Below the pieces are notes generated by a model. That model did no database searches and was not told the origin of the DNA. It saw only the letters and a program-made list of their open reading frames with translations. This document shows positions 54,700 to 58,378 of a DNA stretch of 64,000 bases, piece by piece. The DNA is from Saccharothrix australiensis. Lineage in GTDB: Bacteria > Actinomycetota > Actinomycetes > Mycobacteriales > Pseudonocardiaceae. Numbering within the stretch: position 1 is the stretch's first letter; each line of letters begins with the position of its first letter. The stretch covers positions 2,629,501 to 2,693,500 of the forward strand of contig NZ_RBXO01000001.1 in NCBI RefSeq assembly GCF_003634935.1, written 5' to 3'. A program made the position numbers and the translations under genes.

Positions 54700-56601
54700 A
54701 TGCGATGGGACGGGCAGAAGGACGCGGCGGATCGACAGCAGGTCCTGCCGGGTTTGCCGGGACTGGTCCGCAGCGTGCGGACCCCGGAGTTCTCCGACGT
54801 CGTGTTCCACGAGGTGCGCGCCAAGTCCGTGCTCAACCGGGTCACCGGCGGGCGGTTGCCGTTCGAGTGGACGGTCAACCCGTACCGGGGCTGCACGCAC
54901 GGCTGCACCTACTGCCTGGCCGGTGACACGCCCGTCCTGCTGGCCGACGGCCGCACCAAGCCGATCGCGGAACTCTCCGTCGGGGAGGAGGTGTTCGGCA
55001 CCCGTGAAGGCCGCTACGTCGTCACGCGCGTGAAGGCGCACTGGACGACCGTCAAACCCGCCTACCGGCTGACGCTGGAGGACGGCACGCAGGTCGTCGC
55101 GAGCGGCGACCACCGGTTCCTCACCACCGACGGCTGGAAGCACCTCGCGCCGGGCCGCTGCGCCGACTTCGAGGAGCGCCCGTTCCTGGCGAGGGGCGTG
55201 CGGCTGGTCGGCACGGGCCGGTTCGCCGCACCACCCACCGGGAACGACGACTACCAGCGCGGCTACCTGTGGGGCGTGGTGCGCGGCGGGCTCCCCGGCG
55301 ACCCGGACGTGCGCGCGCGGGCGCAGGAGTACGCCAAGGGCCCGATCCCGCGCGAGAGCGACCTGGTCGAGTGGCCGACGACGCCCGGCGAGGACTGGTC
55401 GAAGGGCTTCCTGGCGGGGTTGTTCGACTCGCGCGGCACGGCCACCGGCGGCGAGCTGGTGCTGTCCAGTTCGGACAGCGTGGTGTTCGAGGCGGCGGTG
55501 CTGGCGTTGCTGCGCCTGCGGATACCGCACGTGGTCGAGGTGCGCGGGGTGCGGATCACCGGCGGGCTCGCCGAGAAGCTGCGCTTCCTGCACCTGACGG
55601 GCCCGGTGGTGGCGCGCGGCAACGCGGTGGAGGGCGCGGCGGTGCCGTCCACCGGGAAGCTCGGCGTCGTGTCGGTGGAAGCGCTCGGCGTCACGCGGAC
55701 GCTGTACGACATCACCACCGGCACCGGCGACTTCATCGCGAACGGCCTGGTCAGCCACAACTGCTTCGCCCGCAACACCCACACCTACCTCGACCTCGAC
55801 GCCGGGCGCGACTTCGACTCCCAGGTCGTGGTGAAGGTCAACGCGGTGGAGGTGCTGACGGCGCAGCTGAAGTCCCGGCGGTGGCGGCGCGAGCACGTCG
55901 CGATGGGCACCAACACCGACCCGTACCAGCGGGCCGAGGGCCGGTACGCGCTGATGCCGGGCATCATCCGGGCGTTGGCGGACTCGGGCACGCCCTTCTC
56001 CGTGCTGACCAAGGGGACCGTGCTGGCGCGGGACATCCCGCTGCTGCGCGAGGCGGCGGCGCGGGTGCCGGTGGGCGTGGGCGTGTCGATCGCCCTGCTG
56101 GACCGGGAGTTGCAGGCGCGGCTGGAGCCGGGCACGCCGAGCCCGCGGGCGCGGCTGGACCTGGTGCGCCGGGTCCGCGAGGCCGGGTTGCCGTGCGGGG
56201 TGTTCGTCGCGCCCGTGCTGCCGGGGCTGACCGACTCGGTGGACCGGCTGGACGAGCTGCTGGGTGGGATCGCGGCGGCGGGGGCGTCCGGGGTGACCGT
56301 GCTGCCCCTGCACCTGCGGCCGGGCGCGCGGGAGTGGTTCGGGCGGTGGCTGGTGCGGGAGCGGCCGGACCTGGTCGAGGAGTACCGCGAGCTGTACGCG
56401 CGCGGGGCGTACGTGGACGCGCGGTACCGCCGTCGACTGGCCGCGCGGATCGAGCCGCTGCTGCGGCGGCACGGGCTGGACACGAGGCGCGGCCTGGACC
56501 GGTCGGGTGCGGACGACGACGCGGTGTGGCCGGAGGGCAGCCTGCCCGGCGTGGCGGAGAACGCGCGCGTGGTCGACCAGGAGCAACTGACCCTGCTCTG
56601 A
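54700..56601 (+). CDS. Intein-containing Rv2578c-family radical SAM protein
   Basis: A 633-residue precursor. Without its intein it would be a ~350-residue radical SAM protein of the Rv2578c (SplB-like) family: LPFEWTVNPYRGCTHGCTY, then CFARNTHTYLDLDAGRDFDS, VAMGTNTDPYQRAEGRYALM, VLTKGTVLARDIPLLREAAA and VGVGVSIALLDRELQARLEP. The [4Fe-4S] motif CxxxCxxC is C65, C69 and, after splicing, C355; in the unspliced protein the cluster site is broken. Start ATG 54700 is preceded by GAGG at 2 nt and by a perfect LexA box. I recall Rv2578c being listed as LexA-regulated in M. tuberculosis. Role in DNA damage response unknown. Confidence 0.93.
   Translation: MRWDGQKDAADRQQVLPGLPGLVRSVRTPEFSDVVFHEVRAKSVLNRVTGGRLPFEWTVNPYRGCTHGCTYCLAGDTPVLLADGRTKPIAELSVGEEVFGTREGRYVVTRVKAHWTTVKPAYRLTLEDGTQVVASGDHRFLTTDGWKHLAPGRCADFEERPFLARGVRLVGTGRFAAPPTGNDDYQRGYLWGVVRGGLPGDPDVRARAQEYAKGPIPRESDLVEWPTTPGEDWSKGFLAGLFDSRGTATGGELVLSSSDSVVFEAAVLALLRLRIPHVVEVRGVRITGGLAEKLRFLHLTGPVVARGNAVEGAAVPSTGKLGVVSVEALGVTRTLYDITTGTGDFIANGLVSHNCFARNTHTYLDLDAGRDFDSQVVVKVNAVEVLTAQLKSRRWRREHVAMGTNTDPYQRAEGRYALMPGIIRALADSGTPFSVLTKGTVLARDIPLLREAAARVPVGVGVSIALLDRELQARLEPGTPSPRARLDLVRRVREAGLPCGVFVAPVLPGLTDSVDRLDELLGGIAAAGASGVTVLPLHLRPGAREWFGRWLVRERPDLVEEYRELYARGAYVDARYRRRLAARIEPLLRRHGLDTRRGLDRSGADDDAVWPEGSLPGVAENARVVDQEQLTLL
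54913..55761 (+). other. Intein inside the radical SAM cluster motif
   Basis: A 283-residue intein (residues 72-354). Block A is CLAGDTPVLLADGRTKPIAE with splice Cys1; block B is LEDGTQVVASGDHRFLTTDG with the conserved T/G..H. Block F/G is LYDITTGTGDFIANGLVSHN, ending in His-Asn before the +1 Cys355. Two LAGLIDADG-like remnants lie between: GYLWGVVRGGLPGD (no catalytic Asp) and GFLAGLFDSRGT. The homing endonuclease is therefore probably inactive, while splicing residues look intact. The insertion lies between the second and third cluster cysteines, and the +1 nucleophile is itself the third ligand. Confidence 0.92.
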
Positions 56602-56653
56602 CACCACCCGTCCCGACGCTGCTTCCGATCGCGCGGGACGGAAGCCTTTCAGC

Positions 56654-56864
56654 TTTTGAAGCAACGGGACCGCAGCAGGGTGAGCACGGGCTCAACGCGC
56701 TCGAAGCTCGGAGCTGGAACGGATGGGGGATCGGCGCGGCGGATTCGTGCTCAGGCGAGGGGGTGGTCCAGTTGCGTGGCGTTCCCGACGACCGTCCAGG
56801 ACTTGCGAGCCTTCCGGGCGCGTGGAGTCCGTGGTTCCCTGGCTGTGGTGGCGTTGCGTAGAAA
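56654..56864 (+). mobile_element. MITE-like element, copy A
   Basis: About 211 bp with terminal inverted repeats. The left end TTTTGAAGCAACGGGACCGC (from 56654) is mirrored at the right end by a degenerate complement ending GGCGTTGCGTAGAAAA near 56864. The interior contains the 30-bp core 56739-56768 and CCCGACGACCGTCCA (56784-56798), both found in inverted orientation in copy B. No transposase gene. No clear target duplication seen. Confidence 0.65.
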
Positions 56865-56954
56865 ATCTGATGGGCTTCAGTCCTGGGGGTAGGGGTGTCG
56901 TGCTCCTGTGGCCCCCGGTTCGTGGTCCCCGGTTCGGGGCTTTGCGGTTCTTGG

Positions 56955-57170
56955 TTTTGGAGCAGCGGGACCACGGCAGGGTGAGCATGGAGTGCGCGTG
57001 CCTGGAAGGTTGCCGGGTCTTGGACGGTCGTCGGGGACGCTACGCAGAATGACCACCCCCTCGCCTGGATACGAATCCGCCGTTCGGATCTCCCGTCTGT
57101 TCGGCCAGCAGTGACCGCGACCCAGGCGCGTTGAGTTCGTGGTCCCTCTGCTGTGGCCCGTTGCTCCGTA
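56955..57170 (-). mobile_element. MITE-like element, copy B (inverted)
   Basis: About 215 bp, the reverse complement of copy A. It begins TTTTGGAGCAGCGGGACCAC (16 of 20 identical to the copy A end after TTTT) and ends CTGTGGCCCGTTGCTCC, the complement of the same terminal sequence. Core matches to copy A: 57051-57080 (27 of 30 identical) and 57021-57035 (15 of 15). Read on the minus strand it encodes ADSYPGEGVVILRSVPDDRP, against ADSCSGEGVVQLRGVPDDRP in copy A. Confidence 0.65.
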
Positions 57171-57263
57171 ACCGGCCAGGCACGAGTAGGCGGCGACAGC
57201 GGGGGGAATCGGCACCTCGGTCGTCCTTGCCATGCATCGTGGGCATGGCGACCTGGATCACAA

Positions 57264-57291
57264 TCGACTGCCGTACGTCGTACGGTACAAT
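57264..57291 (+). promoter_or_regulatory. Promoter with operator dyad for the NTF2-like gene
   Basis: -35 TCGACT (57264-57269), 16-bp spacer, -10 TACAAT (57286-57291). The spacer is occupied almost entirely by the perfect dyad CCGTACG-T-CGTACGG (57271-57285), ideally placed for a repressor. The ATG at 57299 lies where transcription would start, so the mRNA is probably leaderless. Confidence 0.7.
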
Positions 57292-57298
57292 GTACGGC

Positions 57299-57706
57299 AT
57301 GAGTGCTGTGCCGGGTAGTGGTGCTGGGTTCGTACCGACCGACGAGGACGTGGCGGGCGTCCTGGAGTGGTTCGCGCAGTGGGACGCCTTGGCGGTCGCC
57401 AAGGACGTCGAAGCGATGGCCGGGATGGCGTTGTTCCCGGTCAACGCCGTGACCGACGGGTCGGCCGAGTCGTGGGACCGGGCCCGGTTCCTCACCGACA
57501 TGGCCGCCCAGCTCGGTGACGGTGACGGTGACGTGCAGATGGAGTCCGTGCGGACGCCGATCTTCCTCAACGCCGGCCTGGTGTTCGTCGTCACCGACGC
57601 GACCATCACGGTGGGCGAGTACTCGCAGGTGGTGCGGTACGGCGACCTCCTGGTGAAGGTCGACGGGAAGTGGCTGTTCCAGACGATGGTGCAGGGCGGC
57701 TGGTAG
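57299..57706 (+). CDS. NTF2/SnoaL-like (DUF4440-type) protein
   Basis: A 135-residue protein of the nuclear transport factor 2-like fold. Pattern: VAGVLEWFAQWDALAVAKDV (helix pair), DRARFLTDMAAQLGDGDGDV, then beta strands FLNAGLVFVVTDATITVGEY and YGDLLVKVDGKWLFQTMVQG. It is close to hypothetical/steroid-isomerase-like small proteins that bind hydrophobic ligands. ATG 57299 is chosen because it coincides with the predicted transcription start; ATG 57290 is in frame but would overlap the -10 box. No Shine-Dalgarno site. Possible functional link to the following tetR operon is unproven. Confidence 0.8.
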   Translation: MSAVPGSGAGFVPTDEDVAGVLEWFAQWDALAVAKDVEAMAGMALFPVNAVTDGSAESWDRARFLTDMAAQLGDGDGDVQMESVRTPIFLNAGLVFVVTDATITVGEYSQVVRYGDLLVKVDGKWLFQTMVQGGW

Positions 57707-57718
57707 TCGGGTGCCCGG

Positions 57719-57764
57719 TCCGCGTCACTAACAATCAGTCTTGACTGTTTGTTAGTGACGCGGA
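57719..57764. promoter_or_regulatory. 46-bp near-perfect dyad before tetR (operator and/or terminator)
   Basis: Arms 57719-57740 and 57743-57764 are complementary at 21 of 22 positions (mismatch at 57735/57748) around a 2-bp centre. The arm contains GCGTCACTAACAA, and the centre contains CAGTCTTGACTG, giving a -35-like TTGACT at 57741. It fills the gap between the NTF2-like gene and tetR, so it may terminate the first transcript and serve as TetR operator for the second. Confidence 0.8.
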
Positions 57765-57775
57765 ACACTCGGCGC

Positions 57776-58378
57776 GTGGCCACCGGGACGAGGCAGCGCC
57801 AGGCCGACCGCAGTCGTTCGACGCGGCGCAGGCTCCTGGTGGCGACCGTCGAGTGCCTCGTCGAGCTGGGCTGGTCGGGCACGACGACCACGGTGGTCGC
57901 CGAGCGCGCGGGCGTGTCCCGAGGCGCGCAGCTCCACCACTTCCGCACGCGCGGCGAACTCGTCGCGGCGGCGGTCGAGCACCTCGGCGCGGAGAGCGTG
58001 CTCCACCTGAAGGAACGGGCCGCGCGGCTGGCCGGGGAGCCGCCGGCGGAACGCATACCGGCGGTGGTCGAGCTGATCGCCGACTTCTACGCCAGCGACC
58101 TGTTCACCGCCGCCCTGGAGCTGTGGGTCGCCGCGCGCACCGACGCCGACCTCAAGACCGTCGTCGTGCCGCTGGAGGCGCGCCTGGGCCGGGAGACCCA
58201 CCGCCTCGCGGTGGAACTGCTGGCCGCCGACGAGGCCAAGCCCGGTGTCCGGGAGGCCGTGCAGATCACGCTGGACCTCGTGCGCGGCCTGGCGTTGGCC
58301 AACCAGCTCACCGACGACGGCAAGCGGCGCGCGCGGCTCGTCCGGCACTGGGCGCGGATGCTGGAGGCCGCCCTGTGA
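57776..58378 (+). CDS. TetR family regulator of the AtuA-type operon
   Basis: A 200-residue repressor. The helix-turn-helix is [20 protein letters not shown] through [20 protein letters not shown], followed by a ligand-binding domain ([40 protein letters not shown]) of the type that binds acyl-CoA or similar ligands. GTG 57776 ([20 protein letters not shown]) fits related proteins; GTG 57755 and TTG 57749 extend into the dyad. It is the first gene of a run of 4-nt overlapping genes and very likely controls them, through the dyad at 57719-57764. Confidence 0.9.

Follow-up and report, generated by a model that had tools for sequence, protein, structure and literature searches.

Among the repeat families closest to the one described here, ERIC-type repeats are 127-bp repeats of enterobacteria, fold-back elements are chiefly eukaryotic, and Correia elements belong to the prokaryotic MITEs. 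Further prokaryotic examples named in PMC10969869 are Chunjie and QMITE2, and the account given there describes typical MITEs as AT-rich, with terminal repeats of about 4–30 bp. REP sequences are placed between convergent genes in PMC1525189. The window analyzed in this study, a 64,000-nucleotide stretch of Saccharothrix australiensis DNA, contains two repeat copies (A and B) whose family shares features with these systems. Like MITEs as characterized in PMC10969869, the family is shorter than 500 bp, carries no genes, possesses terminal inverted repeats, and is dispersed between genes as full and truncated copies; unlike the short MITE ends, its ends are about 150 bp long. It further differs from MITEs in being almost wholly palindromic, in lacking a recognizable target duplication and a detected parent IS, and in its G+C content, which is not AT-rich in absolute terms yet is lower than that of the window (mean of 67.5% for the 11 full-length elements against 73.7%). 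REP, BIME and REPIN sequences, as portrayed in PMC1525189, PMC3116915 and PMC2817692, are likewise extragenic and palindromic, form alternating arrays and lie between convergent genes, whereas the Saccharothrix unit is several-fold longer, its hosts yield no Y1 transposase match, and its single arm is unstructured. ERIC-type repeats, so far as they have been described, share the intergenic imperfect palindrome and the MITE-like kind, but they differ in host group and size; fold-back elements share the predominance of long inverted repeats. Both comparisons are based on description rather than on sequence.

The first-pass annotation had identified copies A and B as inverted elements of about 210 bp. 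A repeat search confirmed the inverted pair at 56654–56864 and 56955–57170, with arms of 141 nt and 74% complementarity, and the starts of the two copies form a direct repeat of 36 nt at 86%. As had also been claimed, the start of each copy recurs at its end as a degenerate complement, in the form of an arm match on the opposite strand (Table 1). TTTT/AAAA lies immediately beyond the arm ends of copy A. The end-to-end lengths of 199 bp for copy A and 205 bp for copy B agree with the annotated size, but the usual unit of the family is a palindrome of 326–330 bp. Each copy falls below this full unit, comprising one whole arm and approximately 45–49 bp of the other; judged by this arm content, both probably arose from the longer palindrome by internal deletion. 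The 517-nt stretch folds at −375 kcal/mol, compared with a shuffle mean of −242 (n = 100; z = −18). The upstream gene encodes a radical SAM protein matching NF038136 with 805 bits, and its stop codon lies 59 bp ahead of the first arm. The downstream gene, for which automatic gene calling placed the start later, at 57350, encodes a product without a Pfam or NCBIfam match at E 0.001; in several relatives, too, this gene is the neighbor of the radical SAM gene.

Table 1. Features of the repeat locus and its flanking genes (positions in the window)
Feature	Position	Strand	Remarks
Copy A	56654..56864	.	Palindromic element, one arm truncated; profile arm ends 56660-56858
Copy A, truncated arm	56660..56707	+	First 49 of 141 profile positions
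Copy A, near-complete arm	56718..56857	-	Tree class Q; from profile and tree
Copy A, most conserved arm block	56781..56802	-	GTCCTGGACGGTCGTCGGGAAC on the - strand
Linker between copies A and B	56866..56954	.	89 bp
Copy B	56955..57171	.	Palindromic element, other arm truncated; 56961-57165 end to end
Copy B, complete arm	56961..57101	+	Tree class P; from profile and tree
Copy B, most conserved arm block	57017..57038	+	GTCTTGGACGGTCGTCGGGGAC
Copy B, truncated arm	57121..57165	-	First 46 profile positions
Flanking gene, Rv2578c-family radical SAM protein with intein	54700..56601	+	Start uncertain
Second flanking gene	57299..57706	+	135 aa from ATG 57299

The full unit is an imperfect palindrome of approximately 326–330 bp, consisting of an arm of about 150 bp, a center of about 45 bp and an inverted arm. 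Eleven of the 15 two-ended elements of subfamily 1 in the same genome fall within 326–330 bp, while the remaining four (262, 205, 199 and 103 bp, copies A and B included) are internally shorter. The consensus outer end of the arm is GMAGCAACGGGACCACAGCAGGG, and its best-conserved parts are GTCYTGGAYGGTCGTCGGGRACGC, in the middle of the arm, and GACCACCCC. Within 10 bases outside the arm ends, TTTT occurs at 22 and TTT at 31 of 54 ends, and the outermost bases are variable. A second subfamily has the end GCAGCTTGACGGC, and its four two-ended copies measure 382–444 bp. It occurs mainly in the genome designated G021 (S. tamanrassetensis), with a few copies in the S. australiensis genome and in the relative G001. 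At the same arm position in both subfamilies, inspection by eye revealed a short dyad whose letters differ (GACGGTCGTC versus GGCTCAAGCC); this dyad might represent a candidate binding site for a dimer.

The two ends of the element differ from each other. The arms within one palindrome have a mean distance of 0.249, whereas arms re-paired at random give 0.216 ± 0.012 (12 palindromes), and a fraction of only 0.0002 of the shuffles reached as high a value, a pattern that differentiated left and right ends would produce. The arm tree contains a group P of eleven arms (support 73) and a group Q of thirteen (support 60), and six palindromes combine one P with one Q arm. When five arm classes were assigned from the tree by reading, with some groups weakly supported, all 12 palindromes proved heterotypic against 9.3 expected (P = 0.035), a weaker result than that of the distance test. 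Automatic clustering into 2–4 groups recovered heterotypic pairing in two of nine settings (those using the outer-half columns with 3 or 4 groups; p = 0.009), with p > 0.5 in the other seven. The left/right difference is thus carried by the distance test and the tree, not by the clustering.

Copies occur singly, in tandem and, frequently, as solo arms. The A–linker–B composite is repeated at unlinked loci, for example at 6839k with 89% identity over query bases 117–523. The 89-bp linker itself gave BLASTN matches at four further genome sites, and at a fifth site, L052, a related linker separating copies was recognized by eye. In sequence, the linker corresponds to the outer flanks of a Q end and a P end fused together, so that the arrays read as probable head-to-tail tandem copies. 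A small palindrome of the Q flank, CTGAAGGGCTTCAG, is present at five genome sites, all beside elements, and a variant is located elsewhere at a sixth. Another recurrent flank, GGCCGCCAAGGCCAC and its variants, was observed outside the elements at L043, L060, L061, L046 and L051, where it adjoins several solo arms.

BLASTN of the region against its own genome returned 85 matching pieces, including the region itself and its inverse. A profile built from 38 arms (match at E ≤ 0.001; loci clustered at 1 kb) detected at least 57 arm matches at at least 33 loci in this genome, so that the dispersal of copies with common ends proposed in the first-pass annotation is borne out. Five of 25 Saccharothrix genomes yielded a match, with at least 57 in S. 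australiensis, at least 13 in G001, at least 12 in G021 and one marginal match in each of two others; these counts are lower bounds from 125 candidates scored per genome. More than one match was found only in the first three, and 20 of the 25 contained no arm match to the profile. Across 390 genomes of the family, searched with stricter filters and eight candidates scored per genome, 17 gave a match; 12 of these lie outside the genus, each with a single match at an E value of 2e-5 to 1e-3. The exact 24-base conserved pattern, which suits the arm type of S. australiensis and not that of G001, was found in a scan of 84,980 species genomes, possibly excluding the window's own records, on one contig, NZ_JACHJN010000014 of Saccharothrix tamanrassetensis (190,021 bp). 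Phage or plasmid carriage was rejected, since plasmid and phage collections gave no blastn match at E 1e-5 and the exact 24-base pattern was not found in IMG/VR. As far as tested, the family is confined to three species of Saccharothrix, a genus of soil actinomycetes, and full-text searches of open-licence papers returned no title or abstract on such a repeat in this genus.

The genes flanking the window copies were sought in the 25 genomes, and the intervening gap was read in five of them (G021, G004, G011, G016 and G024); in the others the matching stretches lie farther apart or only one was matched. The stretches are about 670 bp apart in the window and 83, 30 and 136 bp apart in G021, G004 and G011, respectively, where the gap contains no repeat; these are empty sites of the kind that the first-pass annotation suggested looking for. 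In the gaps of G016 (190) and G024 (316), which are partly unmatched gene or spacer, no arm was seen. Since the repeat is absent from the same gap in three relatives, it was either inserted here or lost there, and the orthologous gaps are too diverged for an exact junction. G001 carries one palindrome and an extra predicted gene in this gap. At a second site, the G001 copy at 4304k corresponds to 97 bp between the matching stretches in S. australiensis. The G001 site at 7103k was unusable for an empty-site comparison, as S. australiensis has approximately 2.4 kb of further DNA there.

Four loci bear elements in two species: the window and L064, L040 and L142, L058 and L146, and L043 with L148 and L149. 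They indicate that some copies are old or that sites recur. Opposite arms remain at L040/L142 and L058/L146, and the arms of the latter belong to different subfamilies; both old insertions that subsequently lost an arm and recurrent insertion at these sites would fit. In the arm tree, the arms group mostly by species, with the exceptions of L069 of G021, which lies among the S. australiensis arms, and L143 of G001, which lies among the S. australiensis arms of subfamily 2. This pattern leaves homogenization of arms within genomes as a possibility. In S. tamanrassetensis, L148 at the end of contig 14 and L149 at the start of contig 11 carry one arm each and have flanks that both match L043; they are probably one element at whose palindrome the assembly broke.

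The copies are unevenly placed relative to genes. According to our own gene calls, several of which are doubtful beside copies, the 52 copy-bearing gaps in the three host genomes comprise 25 convergent, 26 codirectional and 1 divergent gap, compared with 34, 81 and 59, respectively, among 174 copy-free gaps of 100 bp or more from the same stretches. Copy-bearing gaps are hence less often divergent (1/52 versus 59/174, p = 4e-7) and more often convergent (25/52 versus 34/174, p = 1e-4). In codirectional gaps, the copy is closer to the upstream stop codon in 22 of 26 cases. L039 and L047, each split by a doubtful small ORF, count as two gaps here; counted by locus (n = 51, two contig-edge loci excluded), the distribution is 25 convergent, 25 codirectional and 1 divergent. 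This niche at gene 3′ ends may reflect target choice or survival.

The first-pass annotation had raised target duplications and a transposase with the same ends as possible companions of the copies, and neither was recovered. A scan of 23 two-ended elements yielded no convincing target-site duplication, the best of many offsets being a 2-mer with 7 matches against 2.5 expected; in MITEs, aged copies may no longer show such a duplication. No transposase with the same ends was detected by profile and end-pattern searches of the genus and family genomes or by inspection of genes near the ends. In 22 non-host genomes, the 20-bp end of subfamily 1 gave 6 matches, compared with 29 for the reversed pattern. 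The same pattern gave none in G021, whose copies are mostly of subfamily 2; a subfamily-2 partner would therefore be missed by this search. Two nearby ends at 5606520–5609979 (3.4 kb) were considered as an autonomous element and rejected, because the four enclosed genes are ordinary (LVIVD repeat, DUF305, ABM and TetR families); a fifth gene, beyond the element, encodes an ABC transporter. The solitary ends at 1515042 and 6136820 were likewise dismissed as a partner, as by eye they follow stop codons and show no arm past approximately 40 bp.

At the RNA level, single arms of about 148 nt folded no better than shuffles in all six cases tested (z = +0.2 to +2.4). Over 101 pairs in 11 elements, arm-to-arm pairing was 93.3%, compared with 93.1% in shuffles, and the covariation score was 0.093 in both. 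Versions slid by 1–3 columns gave 34.8–44.1% pairing and scores of 0.035–0.054; the real structure exceeds these, as any palindrome would. The arm alone showed covariation at 0 of 10 predicted pairs. Rfam returned for window positions 56000–58000 only MIR839, which scored 52.6 bits where the gathering threshold is 200. The sub-threshold Rfam match and the lack of covariation beyond shuffles speak against a structured RNA, and a consensus scan found no terminator-like site at the window copies.

The repeats are short and non-coding, have terminal inverted repeats with common boundaries, and occur as dispersed copies with empty sites, as MITEs do. The dispersal of copies sharing their ends supports the MITE-like, non-autonomous structure proposed in the first-pass annotation. 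AT-rich short ends, which are typical of MITEs and not strictly defining, are absent. Since no autonomous element with matching ends was found, we class the family as MITE-like without deriving it from any named IS; on the best reading, it is a new MITE-like family of non-autonomous elements with unusually long, non-identical ends. The A–B pair itself is a tandem remnant of such a mobile family with a probability of roughly 0.74. The spaced conserved blocks, the difference between left and right ends, the dispersed copies with shared boundaries, and their presence or absence among relatives are consistent with a non-autonomous element mobilized in trans. Movement is what we infer from the observed anatomy, distribution, location and empty sites. 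The enzyme acting in trans would read motifs in the long ends as double-stranded sequence rather than the hairpin as such, and would copy or move the unit into transcription-termination zones, where it would be least harmful. Deletion between the palindrome arms could then give rise to solo arms and short derivatives, and head-to-tail tandem copying to the A–linker–B arrays. Against this reading stand the missing target duplication and autonomous partner in the searches made, the ordinary genes between two nearby ends, the ends of about 150 bp, far beyond the 4–30 bp given for MITEs, and the four loci common to species, by which some copies are old or sites recur.

The same observations bear on other explanations. 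The repeats could instead be domesticated extragenic palindromes, kept as bidirectional terminators, mRNA 3′-end stabilizers or chromosome-structure sites. The near absence of divergent gaps and the bias to gene 3′ ends accord with such a role, as do the near-constant length (326–330 bp in 11 of 15), the very stable predicted hairpin, and the occurrence of four loci common to species although the arm tree still follows mostly species. However, tolerance of insertions would produce the same 3′ bias, covariation is no higher than in shuffles, complementarity between the two ends of a palindrome is lower than between randomly paired ends, and the window copies have no terminator-like site in the consensus scan. 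Together with the 20 of 25 genus genomes that lack a match, the two with a single marginal one, and the empty window gap in relatives, these results make domestication unlikely.

Far less probable still is an origin as outsized REP/BIME or REPIN-type sequences that depend for their movement on a REP-associated Y1 transposase (RAYT). Their alternating orientations and two kinds of linker would suit this origin, as would the convergent-gene niche described for REPs in PMC1525189. Neither a cognate RAYT nor a hairpin-folding repeat unit was found: Y1_Tnp (PF01797) had no match in the host genomes G000 (S. australiensis), G001 or G021, although it is present in 5 of 25 genus genomes and 5 of 14 control genomes, and none of the six single arms tested (about 148 nt) folded better than shuffles. 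The arm of about 150 bp also exceeds the 20–40 given for REPs in PMC3733652. A conserved coding phase, the remaining element of the first-pass annotation, survives only as an open frame common to copies A and B. This frame is open in 32 of 39 arms containing the anchor motif, yet another is open in 37. Variation at the proposed codon positions 1, 2 and 3 is 0.223, 0.202 and 0.192, respectively, in 40 near-full arms, so that the third position shows no excess and codon-level constraint is not supported, and the arm alignment contains single-base gaps. Coding ancestry was rejected on the missing codon signal and the rival frame, and remnants of an old coding sequence or a conserved peptide can hardly be credited.

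As a repeat family, these sequences have an unusual anatomy, nearly all palindrome, with differing 150-bp ends and a strong concentration at gene 3′ ends. In bacteria, long palindromes are unstable, and deletion between their arms is a known form of this instability; a family persisting with arms about 25% apart is thus a natural test of palindrome survival. The missing mobilizer constitutes a defined search target. More speculatively, and with rather doubtful odds, the family could exemplify a kind of mobile element with long, left/right-differentiated palindromic ends, a non-Y1 enzyme targeting transcription-termination zones, and copies homogenized within species even at loci common to species. 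If true, such long-ended non-Y1 elements would be a large counterpart of REP elements with their own machinery, possibly part-domesticated as 3′-end elements.

Two further features were noted downstream of copy B. A dyad-rich stretch at approximately 57273–57301, CGTACGTCGTACGGTACAATGTACGGCATG, at the start of the second flanking gene, is mostly kept in the five relatives whose gap was read and is possibly a promoter or regulator site. An inverted repeat at 57719–57764 (22 nt, 95%) lies at the start of a TetR-type gene (57749–58378) and is possibly its operator.
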